Of a stretch of DNA of 64,000 bases, positions 687-8,504 are shown in pieces (position 1 is the stretch's first letter; every line of letters begins with the position of its first letter). This DNA is from Longimicrobiales bacterium (lineage in GTDB: Bacteria > Gemmatimonadota > Gemmatimonadetes > Longimicrobiales > RSA9). A program made the position numbers and the translations under genes. The notes below the pieces were generated by a model. It searched no databases. It worked only from the letters and a program-made list of their open reading frames with translations, and had not been told where the DNA came from. The stretch covers positions 62,001 to 126,000 of the forward strand of contig DATHUY010000160.1 in assembly GCA_035461765.1 (NCBI GenBank), in the 5' to 3' direction.

Positions 687-2063
687 TCAGCCGGAGTTGT
701 CCCTCACCCCGGCCTCGCGCGCCCAGGTGTTCAGCGAGTGCTTGAGCAGGAGGCGGTTCTGCTCCGTGTATCTCATGCGGCGGCGCGTCCGGCCGGGCAG
801 CAGCAGTTCGAGCGTAAGCCACCCCTTCCGTCGCAAGAGATCGAAGGGTCGCATCACATACAACAGGGCCAGTCTCACCGGGGAGCGTGGCGTGCCGTAA
901 ATGGCGGCCATGCGGGCAGGCGATGGAAACATGTGCACGGCCCCCGCGCGGAATCGATGTGGCCAGCTGCCGGCACGCACCACGGATTTGAAAGCAACGG
1001 GCATAGCGATGGTGCAGTTCAGTATGTAAGCGCGCGCGTTCTCGAGCAGGCGTGCTTCGTCGGCGTCGGCTGGCAGCGACTGGATCGTGTCCGGCACCTC
1101 CGCACCGAGGATCTCTCGCGTCAGCAGGAGCGTGAAGCGGACGAAGGAATGGATGCCCCAGCGTTCTGCCGTGCCGGCGAGTAAGTCCCAGTCGATCTGA
1201 CCGTCAAATTGCCGCAGCGTGACAGCAACGTCGCAGAGTTGTTTGAGCGGCGTGTGATCGAACCTGTGGTGATAGCATGCGTGCAGGCACAGGTGCAGGA
1301 TCAGGTGCTCGGGCGACAGTCCCAGCACATCGCGACCATTCACCTGGAATGGTCTTGAGCTCGCCCAGAGCTCCGCGGGCCGAATTTCGAACGGGCTCGT
1401 CGGCAGCTCGATCGTCCAGTGCACCTCGACGCCGAGTCCCCTGCCACCGGGCGGCGCCATCCTGGGCAGATGACAGTTCGTAAGACAGAAATCGTCCAGG
1501 TCCGCAACCTCTGTGGTGTCGAAGCCAGCCTCGGTTAGAGCTCGCGAGGCATCCGCAAGGCGGTCGCGCGGAACCATGACGTCGAGGTCACCCATCGCAC
1601 GCAGGGCCGGGTCGTCGTACACGGCGGCGGCCAGGTGAAGTCCCTTGAGCAGCACCACGGGTATGCCGCGTGCCGCCAGCGCGTCGACGATAACGTCCAG
1701 CTCACGAAAAATCAGCGTGCTCCACAGTGCGCCGATGCTGTAACGCTCGCGCACCACAGCCGTGACTTCAGCGGGAACGGTGCCCACCGGGAACCTGCCG
1801 ATGCGCGCATGGATCAGGGGCAGCACACCCTGCCGCGCCGCCTCATGGGCCATGGCCATCCACGTCCCATCGTCCGTCGCAGCGACTGCGTCGGCATCGG
1901 CGCCGGCGAGTAGCTGGACCAGCAACTCCGCGGCTTTGGGCGTGGCCGTTGTCTTCGTCCCGCTCAACTTCCCCTCACAGCTGTAGCGGCGCCTTTTCGT
2001 GCGGCGCGCCCGCGACCGACCAGGCCGCCATCTGATGGTGGGCGTACGACATCGAAAATCCAC
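687..2063 (-). CDS. Nucleotidyltransferase-family protein of the lasso operon (NTP_transf_5-like)
   Basis: The protein resembles the uncharacterised nucleotidyltransferase family often found in RiPP clusters. It carries LLKG at residues 138-141 and GDLDVMV at 158-164, giving the paired Asp expected of a nucleotidyltransferase fold. It is the last gene of the lasso operon, 39 bp after the exporter. From memory, a gene of this family in the pseudomycoidin lasso cluster adds sugar to the phosphate on the tail serine, so a tail-decorating role is plausible here (inference). The N-terminus is uncertain. The GTG at 2063 gives an Arg-rich, poorly coding-like first 32 residues. A TTG at 1967 just after GAGGGG is an alternative start, although it sits very close to that site. 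Confidence 0.8.
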   Translation of the reverse strand: MDFRCRTPTIRWRPGRSRARRTKRRRYSCEGKLSGTKTTATPKAAELLVQLLAGADADAVAATDDGTWMAMAHEAARQGVLPLIHARIGRFPVGTVPAEVTAVVRERYSIGALWSTLIFRELDVIVDALAARGIPVVLLKGLHLAAAVYDDPALRAMGDLDVMVPRDRLADASRALTEAGFDTTEVADLDDFCLTNCHLPRMAPPGGRGLGVEVHWTIELPTSPFEIRPAELWASSRPFQVNGRDVLGLSPEHLILHLCLHACYHHRFDHTPLKQLCDVAVTLRQFDGQIDWDLLAGTAERWGIHSFVRFTLLLTREILGAEVPDTIQSLPADADEARLLENARAYILNCTIAMPVAFKSVVRAGSWPHRFRAGAVHMFPSPARMAAIYGTPRSPVRLALLYVMRPFDLLRRKGWLTLELLLPGRTRRRMRYTEQNRLLLKHSLNTWAREAGVRDNSG

Positions 2064-2102: not shown

Positions 2103-3917
2103 TCATCGGTAATGCCTGGCTTGCGTTTCAAAGAGGGATGCGTACACGCCGGCGCGCTCGACGAGATCTTCGTGCGCGCCGGCCTCCGCAATCCGACCAT
2201 CCACCATGACGAGAATGCGGTCGGCGCGCCGGACCGTCGACAGACGATGACTGATGAATATGGCCGTCCGATCGCGCGCCAGTTCGTCGAAGCGGTCGAA
2301 CACGGCAGCTTCCGCGCGTGGGTCGAGCGCGGCGCTGGGCTCATCGAGGATGATGATCGGTGTCTGCCGCAGGAATGCGCGCGCGAGGGCGAGCTTCTGC
2401 CACTGGCCGATGCTGAGGTCAACGCCATTCTCGAACTGGCGGCCGAGCAGAGTATCATAACCATTCGGCAGCGCGCGAATGACTTCGTCCGCGCCCGTAC
2501 GTCGTGCGGCCTCGATGATCGCATCGGAATCGACGGGTACGGACACGTTACCCAGCCAAATGTTTTCTCGAGCAGTCAGATAGAACTTCGCGTAGTCCTG
2601 GAAAACGATCGCGAAGTGGCTGCGCAGGTCGTCCACGCTGATCTCGCGCAGGTCCACGCCATCCACCCGCACGGCACCCGTTGCAGGGTCGTAGAGGCGG
2701 CACAGCAGCTTGACGAGAGTCGTCTTCCCCGACCCGTTCTCCCCGACGAGTGCAACGTGCTCGCCCGGAGCGATGGTGAAGGTGACGTTCTTCAGCACAT
2801 CCTGATCGGTACCGGGATACCGGAACGTCACGTCATCGAACTCGATGCCTGTGACGAGCGGGCTCGGAAAAGGCCGCGGTTGTGCCGGATCGACGACCGT
2901 AGGCTGGAGGCCCAGGAAGCGTACGAAATCGGCAAGGAACAGGTTGTTCTCATAAAGGTTCGCCATGCCGCGGAGTACCTCACCGAAGAAGTCCTGAGCG
3001 CGCTGGAACGCACCAAAGTACATCACGACATCTCCGACGGAGATCTCGCCGGCAAGTGCCCTCTGCGCGATGAAGAACATGGCGGCGAACACAGCCGTTA
3101 CGGTGAGCGTCTGAGCCGCCAGCTCCTGCATGCGCTGACGGGTCGTGAGTTGCAGCCGTTCTCGCCTCACCTGCTGCCGCAGGCGGCGGTGTCGCGCGCG
3201 GAACTCGTCACCGAGGCCGAATACACGCATCTCCTTGGCGTAGTCGATCGAGGTCAGGAGCGTCGTGAAGTATCGTGTCACACGCTCGATCTGCGTGCGG
3301 TTACGCGTCCACCTGTACAGTCGCGCGGAGAAGCGTGTCCTGACAAACAGGCCGGGGATTGCCGCGGCGAGCAGCGCAACTGTGAGGATCCAGTGAAACG
3401 CAAGGAGAAGTCCGGTGACTGCGAGCAGCGAGAGCCCCGCCTGACCCACCTGTGTTATGGCGGCAACGACCCGCTGCGGACGCACTGGCGCTTCGGCCTG
3501 TGCGCGCAGGAGCGCGTCATGGTACTCGGTGCTCTCGTAGAACTCGAGATCTACCTCTACGGACTTGCGGTACAGGATCTCCTGGACATGATCCGACAGT
3601 CGCAGCGACTGGACCTCTGTGACGAGAGCGGACAGGCTGCGCAGTGCAGCGCCGAGAATCGCTACGCCGCCCGCGAGCACGACCAGAAACCCCAGCCGGC
3701 TCGCGCCATCTCCGGCGGTCAAACCTGCTGCGACCGTGTCGACGATTTCCTTGAGGAGATAGAGGGCGAGAAGCGGAATGGCGCTCTGGAGCACCATCAG
3801 GGCGATCTGCGCCACGAGCCAGCGACGACCGCTCTGAAGCACGAGCACCAGGCCCTGCCGCAACGGCGACAGATCCAGGTTCGCGGGAAGCCTGCGGCGG
3901 ATCGCGGGACCGATCAT
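2103..3917 (-). CDS. Lasso-peptide ABC exporter (D protein), fused permease-ATPase
   Basis: A 604-residue half-transporter with an N-terminal membrane domain of about six helices (residues 35-320) and a C-terminal ATPase. It has Walker A GENGSGKTT (392-400), the signature LSIGQWQK, Walker B IIILDEPSAALD and a following SHRLS switch. There is no N-terminal C39 peptidase domain. That fits a lasso exporter, where the separate B2 protein cleaves the leader. The start ATG overlaps the stop of the cyclase gene by four bases (3914-3917). Its expected role is export of the mature lasso peptide across the inner membrane, giving immunity as well as secretion. Confidence 0.88.
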   Translation of the reverse strand: MIGPAIRRRLPANLDLSPLRQGLVLVLQSGRRWLVAQIALMVLQSAIPLLALYLLKEIVDTVAAGLTAGDGASRLGFLVVLAGGVAILGAALRSLSALVTEVQSLRLSDHVQEILYRKSVEVDLEFYESTEYHDALLRAQAEAPVRPQRVVAAITQVGQAGLSLLAVTGLLLAFHWILTVALLAAAIPGLFVRTRFSARLYRWTRNRTQIERVTRYFTTLLTSIDYAKEMRVFGLGDEFRARHRRLRQQVRRERLQLTTRQRMQELAAQTLTVTAVFAAMFFIAQRALAGEISVGDVVMYFGAFQRAQDFFGEVLRGMANLYENNLFLADFVRFLGLQPTVVDPAQPRPFPSPLVTGIEFDDVTFRYPGTDQDVLKNVTFTIAPGEHVALVGENGSGKTTLVKLLCRLYDPATGAVRVDGVDLREISVDDLRSHFAIVFQDYAKFYLTARENIWLGNVSVPVDSDAIIEAARRTGADEVIRALPNGYDTLLGRQFENGVDLSIGQWQKLALARAFLRQTPIIILDEPSAALDPRAEAAVFDRFDELARDRTAIFISHRLSTVRRADRILVMVDGRIAEAGAHEDLVERAGVYASLFETQARHYR

Positions 3918-5863
3918 GCGTAGGTGCCCTCGAACCAGCGGATGAAACGGCCCATCGTGATTCCGCGCAGAAGAAGCAGCGGATAGGTTCTTTCATGGAC
4001 CCGTTCGAGCCGGTCCGGCCAATGGTCTACGAGACGTCGCATTTTCGGCAGGTCGAGACATTGCCGCGCGATCTGCGATGTCTCGAGCCGGTCCAGCTCC
4101 CGACCGAAATCCGCGCGAATGGACGGCAGCCACTCCGTCCAGTCAGGCCCCTGCATTCCGTAGGTAGTCCTCAGCCGTATCTGGTCCGGCAACCGGCCTG
4201 CCATGGCGCGCCGCAGCAGAGACCGGGTCACGCCGTCCTGAAGATACTCCGACCCGGGAACCGCCATACAGAATTCCACGACGCGACGATCGGCGGTGGG
4301 ATCGCGTGTCTCGATCCCGAACCACGGCCGCAGTCCGCTGTACACATCGAACACGTCTGCTCCCGCTGCGAGGACCACCAGACGGAATTCCATTTCCGAC
4401 AGGCGATGCAGATCATGGTGATGTCGGTTTGCAGCGCGCACGCGCTCCTCCACACCCATCCGGCGGGCAAACTCCGGATGGATAGCGGACAGATTGGCAT
4501 CCCAGACGGGTTGCGGCTCGACGCCGCGCAGCCGCCGGAGCGCAGTCGAAATCGCTCCCGGAATCAGCGGCATCAGCACTTCGCGGCGAAGCACGTCGCG
4601 GCGCCCGCGTCCGCTCGTGCGGGCCAGCGCGTGCGTCTCACGCCAGACACGGCGCCATTCGGCCCGAACGGCAGAATCGCGAAGGGAGCGCAGCCCATCC
4701 TGGCTGATGGTGGCATTGCCCTTATGCCCGGAGAGCATGACACGTGTCCCTGCGTCCGCCGCCTGCGCATAAATGCCGAGGAACCATGGCATGTTGGAGG
4801 GATTCCTCGGCGGTGCGCCGCTCATGCGGAAAAACATGTCGAGGTCATCGAGCGGAGATCGGCCGTCCGTGCGCCGAATGTGCAGATCGATGGCCGGATG
4901 CATGCGCGCCAGCGCCTCGACATCGGCGGATTCATCGAGAATGGCGCCTCGGCTCGCTTGGCCTGTGTATCCCGCGCGAGGTGCGGCGTGGAAAGTCGGG
5001 AGAGTTCGTCCCTGCTCCCGGAGCTGGTCCGCCGCCACGGCTGCGACGGACGCCGAATCCAGGCCTCCGCTGGCCATCATGCTTATGGTTCCGGCGCTGC
5101 GCAGTTGCGATCGCACGGCCGCATCGAACACAGCGACAAAGGCCTCGACATACTCGTGACTCGAGAGTCGGAGCATGCGGCGCGGCGCCGGCGACCAGTA
5201 TCGTTCAATGCGGATCCCCGTTCGGCTGGCCGTGAGCGTATGACCCGGTGGGAGCCGATGTATGCCGCGGAAGAAAGAACTCTCTGGTCGCTGGAGCAGC
5301 ACCAGGAAATCTGCGACCTTCTGCTCATCGAGCGCGGCAGTCACATGCGGCAGGCAGGCAAGCGCATGCGGCGTGGTCGCGAGCTCGACGCCGTGTGGCG
5401 ATTCGTGATAGAACAGCACGCGCTGGCCCATGGCATCGCGCGCACAGAACAGTTCCCGGGACCCCGCGTCCCACACGGCGAACGCATAATCGCCCACGAC
5501 ATGCCGTGGGCATTCATGCTTCCACTGCTGCCACGCCGCCAGCACGAGTGCTGCGTCGGACAGGCCGGTCGCTTCCCGCGACGAAATTCCAAGTGCGGCG
5601 GTCAGCTCGTCACGATTGTCGATCCGCGCATCGACGACCACGACGACCGCATCGCCGGCTGCTCGCTCGGGCCCCCGGTAGTGAACATCTTCCGGAGTCA
5701 CCCGCCACGGAATGCAGCCGAGCGCGACCGGCGAGGCGACGTCGTCCGGTGCCCAGTACGACGCGCCATCGCCGTACTCGCGCATGGCGCCAAGCAGAGT
5801 TTCCGGAACCGTGGCTGGCACCGGGGCGCCGTCCCATCGATACCCCGCGCAAATCGCACTCAT
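3914..5863 (-). CDS. Lasso-peptide cyclase (C protein), asparagine-synthetase-like
   Basis: A 649-residue protein built like asparagine synthetase B. The N-terminal glutaminase-like domain covers roughly residues 1-220. The C-terminal ATP-pyrophosphatase domain contains the PP-loop SGGLDS at 265-270. The nucleophilic Cys2 of true asparagine synthetases is absent (the protein starts MSAIC), so ammonia production from glutamine is not expected. In lasso biosynthesis this enzyme adenylates an Asp or Glu side chain of the core peptide and joins it to the N-terminal amine to close the ring. The gene sits between B2 (27-bp gap) and the exporter (4-bp overlap), the canonical neighbourhood. Confidence 0.92.
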   Translation of the reverse strand: MSAICAGYRWDGAPVPATVPETLLGAMREYGDGASYWAPDDVASPVALGCIPWRVTPEDVHYRGPERAAGDAVVVVVDARIDNRDELTAALGISSREATGLSDAALVLAAWQQWKHECPRHVVGDYAFAVWDAGSRELFCARDAMGQRVLFYHESPHGVELATTPHALACLPHVTAALDEQKVADFLVLLQRPESSFFRGIHRLPPGHTLTASRTGIRIERYWSPAPRRMLRLSSHEYVEAFVAVFDAAVRSQLRSAGTISMMASGGLDSASVAAVAADQLREQGRTLPTFHAAPRAGYTGQASRGAILDESADVEALARMHPAIDLHIRRTDGRSPLDDLDMFFRMSGAPPRNPSNMPWFLGIYAQAADAGTRVMLSGHKGNATISQDGLRSLRDSAVRAEWRRVWRETHALARTSGRGRRDVLRREVLMPLIPGAISTALRRLRGVEPQPVWDANLSAIHPEFARRMGVEERVRAANRHHHDLHRLSEMEFRLVVLAAGADVFDVYSGLRPWFGIETRDPTADRRVVEFCMAVPGSEYLQDGVTRSLLRRAMAGRLPDQIRLRTTYGMQGPDWTEWLPSIRADFGRELDRLETSQIARQCLDLPKMRRLVDHWPDRLERVHERTYPLLLLRGITMGRFIRWFEGTYA

Positions 5864-5890: not shown

Positions 5891-6322
5891 TCAGGCGAAA
5901 GTGGAGACGACAATATAGCGTCCCGGATCATCGCCGCCCGTCACGATGACGCTCCCGGCGCGCACCCAGGCGTGGGCATTGTACTGGTTTGCGGGATCGG
6001 TTCCGAGGTAGAGCGTGCTCTGGATTCCGCGACGGCGCAGCATCCACTGGGCCGTGACCGCCTGCGGCAGGCAGACCGGTTTCCAGGGGAGCCTGCGCGC
6101 TGAAGCGGCCACGGCCCACGCGACAAGCCGGACCGCGGCCATGCTGTCCCGAGCCTGGTGTGACGGACTTTCCGACATGTGCCGGCCGAGACGGGCGGCG
6201 ACGCGTGAGAACCGCATGACACGCAACATGATGCTCGCGGCAGTGCAGAGCGCGAGTGCTTCGGCAAGCGCGACCGCTTCAGGTCCGGTCAGACGAGGAA
6301 GTCGCCTCATCCGCTTCGCCAT
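5891..6322 (-). CDS. Lasso leader peptidase (B2), transglutaminase-like
   Basis: A 143-residue protein with the C-terminal core typical of lasso B2 proteases. Trp80 and Cys84 lie in WKPVCLPQAVTAQWMLRRRG. The catalytic His is at 117 in YNAHAWVRAG, and acidic residues follow near 131. Cys and His form the protease active site that removes the leader from the precursor. It overlaps the B1 gene by up to 44 bp in another frame. An internal ATG at 6310 would shorten this only slightly. B1 and B2 are split here, as in Gram-positive and paeninodin-type clusters, rather than fused as in McjB of microcin J25. Confidence 0.9.
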   Translation of the reverse strand: MAKRMRRLPRLTGPEAVALAEALALCTAASIMLRVMRFSRVAARLGRHMSESPSHQARDSMAAVRLVAWAVAASARRLPWKPVCLPQAVTAQWMLRRRGIQSTLYLGTDPANQYNAHAWVRAGSVIVTGGDDPGRYIVVSTFA

Positions 6323-6635
6323 GGATGCGAATGAGCTGCGCAGCGCGTAGCTCTTCGAGGAAACGGAGCACTTCGCGCCGGCAGGCGTCGGCAGCGATAT
6401 CGAACTCCTGTGTCAGCGCTTCGCACACGTCGCTCACCCTGCGAGGCCTGTCGAGCAGCGCCCAGATCCGCGACCCCACGCCCTCCAGACCGAAATACAT
6501 CCCCTGGTCGATGCTCATCATCACCACGGTTCCGTCCACCTCGACCGCCACAGGCTCGTCGCTGCGGGCGACAACGGTCTGAAGCCCGATCTCGCTGCTG
6601 GCGCTCACTATGCCTCTCTCGCTACTGGCGCTCAC
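6279..6635 (-). CDS. Lasso leader-recognition protein (B1), PqqD/RRE fold
   Basis: A 118-residue PqqD-like protein. The diagnostic stretch YFGLEGVGSRIW (residues 47-58) matches the Y-L-x-x-V-G-x-x-I-W pattern of RiPP recognition elements. The rest supplies the winged helix that binds the leader and presents it to B2. The GTG start at 6635 shares its G with the TAG stop of the kinase gene, so translation is tightly coupled. The first 24 bp are directly repeated 27 bp downstream. This gives a second in-frame GTG at 6608 and the repeated residues SASSE at 2-6 and 11-15. Confidence 0.9.
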   Translation of the reverse strand: MSASSERGIVSASSEIGLQTVVARSDEPVAVEVDGTVVMMSIDQGMYFGLEGVGSRIWALLDRPRRVSDVCEALTQEFDIAADACRREVLRFLEELRAAQLIRIHGEADEATSSSDRT

Positions 6636-6640
6636 TATGC
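6590..6640. repeat. 24-bp direct repeat over the B1 start site
   Basis: Two copies at 6590-6613 and 6617-6640 differ at one base and have a period of 27 bp (nine codons). Each copy carries the ATAGTGAGCG start context on the minus strand, so the kinase-stop/B1-start junction is duplicated in frame. Slippage or unequal exchange is the simplest origin. Confidence 0.85.
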
Positions 6641-7654
6641 GTCCGGATTCTTCTTGCTGCGTTTGCCGCCGAAGCCGCCTGCATCGCGCTCGATCAGGTC
6701 GAGCACCGCGTCGAGGTGTTCGAAGCCGCGCGGTCTGATCAGCCTCTTCACGGTCACTGTCCGAGACAGCTCTGCAGCTTTCCTGAAAATCGCCGTCGAT
6801 AATCCCATATCCGACGCGAAAGCCAGGAGATACGTCTCGTCGACGAGTGCCGAGATCGCTTCCAGCCCGCGCAGTTCCTCCACGCGCGGCTCTCCCTCAC
6901 CGAACTCGAGGAGATATACACAGGAAAGCGGAACGGGATCGGTCGGCGTCGCGGACGTGGACACGGGCACGTGATACTTACCCCGATTGCCGCCTGCGGG
7001 CTCCAGTCCGGTGCACTCGCTGTCGAGCGCCGCCATTCCCGTCGCATCCAGCTTCAAGCGCAGGGCGCCGGGCCACACGCCTGTTTGGCCAGCGCAAATC
7101 TCCGTCATCACACAGATGTCGTCCGTCACGAACGCGGCACCCCGCCGCAGCAGGGCCCCGACCAGCGTCGACTTGCCGCCTCCCGACGCCGCGGCAAATG
7201 CAACGCCGCTACCCTCGACAGCCACGCAGCTGGCATGCAGCGGCAGAATGCCTCGCTGGTGCAGGATCACGCCCAGCATTGCGCCCGTGAGGTAGAGCCG
7301 CACGTCCTCCGGCCTGGCACCAGGCTCGGCGGCTACGCGAATGCACGAGCCGCCGCTAGCCGTGTACTGCGCCACTCCGTGCACCTGGAGGCGGACTTCA
7401 CGATCCTCGATGACCGACCGGGCGCCATACATAACTCCGTCAGACCTCGCATGCATATCCGGCTCCGCGAGGATGAGGACCTCCGGCTCCTCCCCCGCCC
7501 GATGCAGCGGCCACTCCGACAGATCGATCGCCGATCGCACCCGCAGCCCATACATGCTGAAATCGCACACTCCGGCCGAAGCGGTTTGGGCCACCCCATT
7601 CGGCGCGTGGCGCTGTCGGTCGGATTCCGCACTACGCCGCGTCGGTGTTTTCAT
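6635..7654 (-). CDS. HPr-kinase-like lasso-peptide serine kinase
   Basis: A 339-residue protein that resembles the C-terminal kinase domain of HPr kinase/phosphorylase. It has LPLHAS near residue 137-142, the P-loop ASGGGKST at 156-163 and an Asp-Asp pair at 178-179 (FVTDDICVM). In paeninodin-type lasso clusters such a kinase phosphorylates the C-terminal Ser of the precursor (established for the family). The precursor here ends in Ser, which supports the same reaction. The ATG at 7654 is preferred because AGGA precedes it and because the upstream alternative at 7735 would read through a strong intercistronic hairpin. It is not expected to act on HPr. Confidence 0.88.
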   Translation of the reverse strand: MKTPTRRSAESDRQRHAPNGVAQTASAGVCDFSMYGLRVRSAIDLSEWPLHRAGEEPEVLILAEPDMHARSDGVMYGARSVIEDREVRLQVHGVAQYTASGGSCIRVAAEPGARPEDVRLYLTGAMLGVILHQRGILPLHASCVAVEGSGVAFAAASGGGKSTLVGALLRRGAAFVTDDICVMTEICAGQTGVWPGALRLKLDATGMAALDSECTGLEPAGGNRGKYHVPVSTSATPTDPVPLSCVYLLEFGEGEPRVEELRGLEAISALVDETYLLAFASDMGLSTAIFRKAAELSRTVTVKRLIRPRGFEHLDAVLDLIERDAGGFGGKRSKKNPDA

Positions 7655-7676: not shown

Positions 7677-7714
7677 TCAATGCCCTCCGTTCTGAGCAGC
7701 ACGGAGGGCATTGA
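7677..7714 (-). terminator. Perfect 14-bp intercistronic hairpin after the lasso precursor
   Basis: TCAATGCCCTCCGT at 7677-7690 pairs perfectly with 7701-7714 around a 10-base loop. It lies between the precursor stop (7745) and the kinase start (7654). No T-run follows on either strand, so it may act as a partial terminator or an mRNA-stabilising stem that keeps precursor mRNA in excess over the enzyme genes. This is common in RiPP operons. Confidence 0.7.
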
Positions 7715-7744: not shown

Positions 7745-7861
7745 TTAGCTCTGTACCGGGTACTCGCCGCCGAGTGCGTCGTTGTTGGTGCCAGCTCCCT
7801 GAGCTGTCTCGCTCACGGGCTTGCGGACCAGCACGGGTCGGACCCATGTGGCTTTGGTCAT
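7745..7861 (-). CDS. Lasso-peptide precursor, 38 residues, C-terminal Ser
   Basis: The start ATG at 7861 follows a near-perfect ribosome site (GGAGG, 5-6 bases before it). The leader carries the B1 recognition motif WVRPVL (residues 6-11), equivalent to Y-x-x-P-x-L. A Thr at 19 fits the conserved penultimate leader position. Leader cleavage after Ala20 would give the 18-residue core QGAGTNNDALGGEYPVQS. Its G-x-G-T pattern resembles paeninodin, and Asp28 would be core position 8 for ring closure. The C-terminal Ser38 is the expected site for the neighbouring kinase. A start at 7975 would only add a non-leader-like N-terminus. Gln at core position 1 is unusual; cleavage one or two residues away is possible. 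Confidence 0.88.
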   Translation of the reverse strand: MTKATWVRPVLVRKPVSETAQGAGTNNDALGGEYPVQS

Positions 7862-8504
7862 TTTTCCTCCTACGCGGGGATAAAAGGGCTGTGAGGACGC
7901 AGCACGACGCGCCTCCGACTGCGGGATGCGGTCCGTGTTACGCCCCTGGTACTCAGGTGGCAATTCTCCGGCCATAGGCCGCCGGGCACATTACCGGATG
8001 GTCAAGTCACCGCGATCGAGCTTAGAATACAGTGCTGACAACAATTCTGGGGCGATTTCGCAGCATTCCGGGCCACGTAAGTGAAACGTCTGGGGTTGCT
8101 GCAGTTGCCACGTCTGTTGCGCGTGAGCCACAAAGGAGTCGTCGTGCTGAGGAGCTGATCGCACCCTGCGCGAGCCAAGATCGTCAGTCTTACGTCCGGA
8201 CATCCGAAACGATCCGGCCATCCACCGTGTACCGGACCGCTCGACGAGTGGGTCCCTCCGATCGTCGAGATCTGAGAAACTGTCTCGTGCGTCGTGCCGC
8301 ACGCAAGCTTCGACGCGGCCGCCATGACGCGGCCTCGTGGCGCAGGTTGCCGTGGTCCAGGGGCACCGGCATCTTGTCACCCGCGCCGGGATATGCATCA
8401 GGACGCCGCGAAGGCCATTTGAAATTGCCGTCCCCGCCAACCAGGGGCGCGCGGGATCGCAGCCTCGGCGCAACGCCCTACCGCTTATCGCACGAATCGG
8501 AGTC
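7862..8504. other. Intergenic region between divergent lasso and Wzi-like genes
   Basis: About 640 bp separate the divergent lasso precursor and the Wzi-like gene. Apart from the candidate lasso promoter I see no convincing gene. Open frames here lack a ribosome site and recognisable domains, and no RNA gene is apparent. Confidence 0.5.
7935..7963 (-). promoter_or_regulatory. Candidate promoter of the lasso operon
   Basis: On the minus strand TTGCCA (7963-7958) is followed after 17 bp by TAACAC (7940-7935), about 74 bp before the precursor ATG. The -35 matches five of six consensus bases and the -10 only three, so this is a weak prediction. Confidence 0.3.

Follow-up and report, generated by a model that had tools for sequence, protein, structure and literature searches.

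An open reading frame of 38 codons in the window (the whole 64,000-nucleotide stretch of DNA analysed here) is probably the precursor gene, A, of a cysteine-free (class II type) lasso peptide produced by an operon of the order A-K-B1-B2-C-D-N, with a predicted ring between Gln1 and Asp8 of the core and a predicted phosphorylation. The operon lies on the minus strand and is compact, with neighbouring genes overlapping or close.

The precursor gene and its operon

The features of the operon are as follows.

7866..7871, minus: Shine-Dalgarno sequence aggagg of A (taggaggaaaa-ATG before the 38-residue start)
7745..7861, minus: precursor gene A, 38 residues plus stop, encoding MTKATWVRPVLVRKPVSETAQGAGTNNDALGGEYPVQS
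7802..7861, minus: leader, residues 1-20, with WxxPxL at 6-11 and, in the predicted register, Thr19 at -2 and Ala20 at -1
7778..7801, minus: rule-based prediction of the macrolactam ring Gln21-Asp28 (QGAGTNND, core residues 1-8)
7748..7777, minus: predicted tail ALGGEYPVQS, ending in Ser38
7677..7714, minus: perfect 13-bp inverted repeat (hairpin) between A and K
6635..7654, minus: K, HprK-like kinase, 339 residues from the ATG at 7654
6279..6635, minus: B1, PqqD-like RiPP recognition element (RRE), start codon uncertain (PqqD E 3.7e-19)
5891..6322, minus: B2, leader peptidase, transglutaminase-like (NF033537 99.6 bits, cut-off 33)
3914..5863, minus: C, lasso macrolactam cyclase, asparagine-synthetase-like (SGGLDS at 265)
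2103..3917, minus: D, ABC exporter, MsbA-like (Walker A present)
687..2063, minus: N, NTP_transf_5 nucleotidyltransferase-like (PF14907 E 1.7e-54; GDxD present)

The translation of A contains both the [Y/W]xxPx[L..] leader motif (WxxPxL at residues 6-11) and a Thr at the position predicted to be -2 (Thr19), followed by Gln21, Asp28 and a terminal Ser38. The original prediction of a lasso precursor here is borne out by the minus-strand frame, its Shine-Dalgarno sequence, the operon, the rarity of such frames in simulations and the match of the leader to a relative. Under a strict rule (a Trp/Tyr motif, Thr 13-15 residues further on, an acid at core position 7-9 and a size of 25-60), which was written after the frame had been seen, A is the sole passing frame in the 64-kb window; in 30 first-order Markov simulations the mean was 0.3 such frames per 64 kb, falling to 0.0 when a Shine-Dalgarno sequence was also required. 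Residues 1-19 are identical at 11 of 19 positions to the precursor of a related cluster from another family (E 2e-7, one comparison), and six of the 14 codons that differ over this stretch are synonymous (P9, L11, V12, V16, E18 and T19). The precursor has no match to any NCBIfam or Pfam model. The plus strand of 7745-7861 is likewise open, but its translation is unlike any precursor. A longer start for A, the ATG at 7975, exists but was rejected, as the relatives start at the equivalent of the 38-residue Met.

B1, B2 and C are all present with the motifs that were looked for intact, B2 keeping Cys84 and His117. The closest match to B1 in the PDB is TbiB1 (5v1u; E 1.3e-13). The cluster falls outside a strict Bacillota-type paeninodin definition, since B1 (75.1 bits to NF033536, lasso_PqqD_Bac; cut-off 80) and C (372.3 bits to the curated lass_lactam_cya model; cut-off 525) both score under the NCBIfam cut-offs. 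K gives partial matches to TIGR04355, TIGR04352 and PF07475, all under their curated cut-offs; it keeps the TDD motif, and its P-loop, ASGGGKST, aligns with RSGAGKST of its relative. The inverted repeat between A and K has a counterpart at the equivalent place in the related cluster, a 12-bp hairpin, and a stem at this position would fit a higher output of precursor than of enzymes. A near-perfect direct repeat of about 24 bases with a spacing of 27 also lies around the B1 start (6590-6640) and repeats SASSE in the N-terminus of B1.

Cut site, ring and a census of precursors

Thr19 lies 13 residues past Trp6. A cut after Ala20 would place Thr19 at -2 and Trp6, Pro9 and Leu11 at -15, -12 and -10; in the crystallized complex of the PbaA leader with its RRE, Pro is at -12 and Leu at -10 (PMC13381572). 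Thr at -2 is described as near-universal in lasso leaders, with Ile as a documented exception (PMC10368454). In this register Asp28 is core residue 8 and the sole acid at core positions 7-9. The best core is thus predicted, from the sequence, to be a ring from Gln1 to Asp8 with a 10-residue tail that would be threaded through it. After loss of one water, QGAGTNNDALGGEYPVQS has a computed monoisotopic mass of 1758.7809, rising to 1838.7472 with one phosphate and to 2000.8000 with one phosphate and one hexose.

The frequency of such a core was judged from 69 precursors of clusters found with B2 and C, chosen by motif searches and by eye; same-contig duplicates and chance frames were removed before counting, and clusters with no recognized precursor are outside the counts. 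(A larger lasso dataset, that of Kretsch et al., is mentioned in PMC13381572.) The rule of Thr at -2 and an acid at 7-9 solved 62 of the 69, a number that presupposes this rule and so covers leaders with Thr at -1 unsystematically; both precursors of the related cluster are among the seven left unsolved. The distance from Trp/Tyr to Thr is 13 in five of the 62, 14 in 14 and 15 in 35, and odd distances make the assignments of L051, L054, L057a, L057b, L069, L091 and L109 doubtful. Gly (17) and Ala (16) are the commonest first core residues, followed by Thr (6), Ser (6), Val (4), Gln (2) and others. Gln was originally predicted to be rare as the first residue, and at two of 62 it is; the other candidate comes from a haloarchaeon (Natrarchaeobius; L085 10864-11007). 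The same prediction had called the eight-residue Asp ring unusual, a point we rejected: 33 of the 62 allow a ring of eight alone, against 19 for a ring of nine and three for a ring of seven, with seven precursors ambiguous, and the ring size is ordinary because this is the commonest class.

Two other starts for the core were considered. A cut after Thr19 would give a nine-residue ring from Ala20 to Asp28 (AQGAGTNND; computed mass 1829.8180). Ala is a common first residue in the census, nine-residue rings are frequent there, and two relatives from the same order, L016 and L017, have Ala1-Asp9 as their solution; this start is nevertheless unlikely, as it requires Thr at -1 and shifts Pro9 to -11 and Leu11 to -9, which departs from the PbaA numbering. 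A cut after Gln21 would give the seven-residue ring GAGTNND from Gly22 to Asp28 (1630.7223), with the commonest of all first residues, and is very unlikely, given how few precursors have a seven-residue ring as their sole solution and that Thr would have to sit at -3. We accept the register Gln21-Asp28 because either alternative breaks both the Thr(-2) rule and the PbaA-type spacing of Pro and Leu; the original placing of the cut after Ala20, which makes Gln21 the first core residue, is supported by the same Thr and by its distance from the Trp/Pro/Leu motif. Thr at -2 does not look absolute: besides the documented Ile, four census leaders among the unsolved rows (L070, L079, L104 and L134; Sphingomonas and Granulicella) apparently have Ala(-2)-Glu(-1) in place of Thr-x, e.g. 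GQAE/VGTRTAGD.

Widening the census, five of 346 genomes of the order of G476 matched and yielded three new precursors, with one more from another search; a scan of the phylum with the widening profile matched nine of 390 genomes, in which the three clear precursors were all in the census already. With these four additions the set comprises 73 rows (38 with Trp, 34 with Tyr and one with Phe in the motif). In this set a terminal Ser is found in 32 of 38 WxxP-type precursors versus five of 34 YxxP-type precursors, counts in which related sequences are not independent.

Three further observations concern other lasso clusters. The window's own genome has a second lasso cluster (G000:C111, L027 4828-4962, minus), with a precursor solved as Gly1-Glu8. 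At L172 9079-9213 (plus), a cluster with D, K, B1, B2, C and N has a precursor, MTNQKKSWTAPTVNELPVDLTAVAGTSGFNSQNAGRSFKSGGQS, with no Asp or Glu in the predicted core, yet a terminal Ser. Lasso-type clusters also occur in archaeal records, namely L085 (Natrarchaeobius) and L083 10958-11071 (a MAG named Methanothrix).

The related cluster in ES-bin-78

A search with C across 395 genomes of the phylum found one related cluster (E 1e-230; the next best C had E 1e-84), and no second close relative was found in 154 genomes of the order or 179 of the relative's family. A kinase-profile search of 59 relatives of the sister genome gave one further weak match (G404), and a precursor profile run against 394 genomes of the class picked up nothing beyond the window and a single weak match (G233), which lies within a 409-residue frame; the genome samples used in these searches overlap. 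Probing genome contigs with B2 by itself gave no match. The relative is the MAG Gemmatimonadaceae bacterium ES-bin-78 (G386; JACMME010000170.1), of the same class and another family, in which K, B1, B2 and C share 55-64% identity with those of the window (K 56%) and N shares 36%. As the sequence is a MAG assembly, misassembly is possible. Its relevant features are the following.

L049 11767-11853 and 11575-11661, minus: two tandem precursors, MKRTPWITPTLVSKPVSETLFVQDDVLS and MKRTPWITPTLVSKPVSETLFVQDAEQS, with a window-like leader and eight-residue cores
L049 7661-7726, minus: remnant of exporter D, about its last 22 codons, between C and N (tblastn E 0.002)

Both sister leaders align with that of the window through Thr19, and the cores after Leu20 are eight residues long (FVQDDVLS and FVQDAEQS). 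They have no acid at positions 7-9 and end nine residues past Thr19, too short for a lasso. Comparison with close homologues was the check proposed for the original core, and it gave a divided answer: the leader is shared, while the core is left unconfirmed because those of the sole close relative are too short to form a lasso ring. The two sister copies differ by two synonymous substitutions over the first 24 codons and by three amino-acid replacements at codons 25-27, and their final Ser is kept through a different codon, a pattern that looks like selection acting on the leader and on the terminal Ser. A profile built from the three precursors found no further copy in the sister genome at E up to 5.

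In the sister cluster the frames of K, B1, B2 and C are uninterrupted and their motifs conserved. The exporter is reduced to the 22-codon remnant, so the cluster looks partly decayed or re-purposed, and no other D-like stretch was found elsewhere on the 31.8-kb contig (L049 and L175). Decay after loss of the exporter and an altered, short product are both possible. The short cores were considered as a new non-lasso class, which was set back, as the remnant means that decay could explain both changes. It is distinctly unlikely, though conceivable, that this two-member subfamily is plastic, with the window enzymes closing Gln1-Asp8 and the sister enzymes serving eight-residue cores in which the eighth carboxylate is the C-terminus itself; the sister product could then be a small phosphorylated ring, closed head to tail or unthreaded by the cyclase, or a short phosphopeptide if the cyclase is bypassed. 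The two clusters offer a natural test of the shortest core that kinase and cyclase tolerate.

The sister cluster also bears on whether the window product is a lasso at all, and not a linear peptide with one or more phosphates, or an unthreaded ring. The sister enzymes are intact, yet the cores that they serve lack the length for a lasso, and linear polyphosphorylated peptides from an HprK-like kinase and an RRE exist (PMC13381572). We consider such a product improbable for the window, which retains the cyclase, B2, the exporter, an acid at core position 8 and a 10-residue tail, and the lost exporter of the sister points to decay there. The window also does not fit the definition of a linear polyphosphorylated peptide cluster: C and B2 are present, and the eight proteins scanned include no signal peptidase.

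Predicted pathway and comparison with known systems

For the preferred product, the Gln1-Asp8 lasso, B1 would bind the WxxPxL motif of the leader, K would probably phosphorylate Ser38 on the linear precursor and B2 would cleave after Ala20. C would adenylate the side chain of Asp28 and couple it to the amine of Gln21, so that the eight-residue ring encircles the tail; N may further elaborate the phosphate and D would export the product. Ser38 is the sole Ser of the predicted core and its last residue, and an HprK-like kinase gene is found in the operon; together with N, these point to a phosphorylated, perhaps further decorated, C-terminus. N-terminal Gln can cyclize spontaneously to pyroglutamate, so the enzyme would need to capture Gln1 quickly.

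The role proposed for N follows its relative in pseudomycoidin (Bacillus), whose lasso cluster likewise has a kinase and a nucleotidyltransferase gene; hexose transfer by the window N is putative, and paeninodin and pseudomycoidin are the cases of C-terminal modification described in PMC8498205. The window shares with the paeninodin/Pba systems the WxxPxL leader, Pro at -12 and Leu at -10, Thr at -2, the split B1/B2, the HprK-like kinase, the C-terminal Ser and the NTP transferase and exporter genes. Paeninodin itself has Ala1 and a nine-residue ring. The type belongs to Bacillota, whereas the window has a Gemmatimonadota host, a predicted Gln1 and eight-residue ring, and a B1 nearest to TbiB1.

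Bsf of Bradymonas resembles the window in its HprK-like kinase, B1, B2 and eight-residue ring on Asp8, and differs in having YxxPxL, Ile at -2, Gly1 and a phosphorylated core Ser3 where the window has WxxPxL, Thr at -2, Gln1 and a single, C-terminal core Ser (PMC10368454). Our literature search, with most subscription papers outside its reach, found no demonstrated Gln1 lasso. PMC12670498 presents metanodin as the first peptide to begin with Asn and gives its second-closest match a predicted Gln there, so that a predicted Gln1 is not new. Both share with the window a rare amide residue as the ring-forming first residue and Thr at -2; the metanodin cluster is gammaproteobacterial and has an isopeptidase gene, with no kinase mentioned in the sections consulted, while no isopeptidase is found among the window genes scanned. 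Should mass spectrometry confirm Gln1, it would widen the range of first residues shown to be acceptable to lasso cyclases, as Asn1 did for metanodin. Set against these systems, the cluster is fairly ordinary: its product is probably a further phosphorylated lasso peptide of an established type, whose predicted first residue, Gln, is rare.
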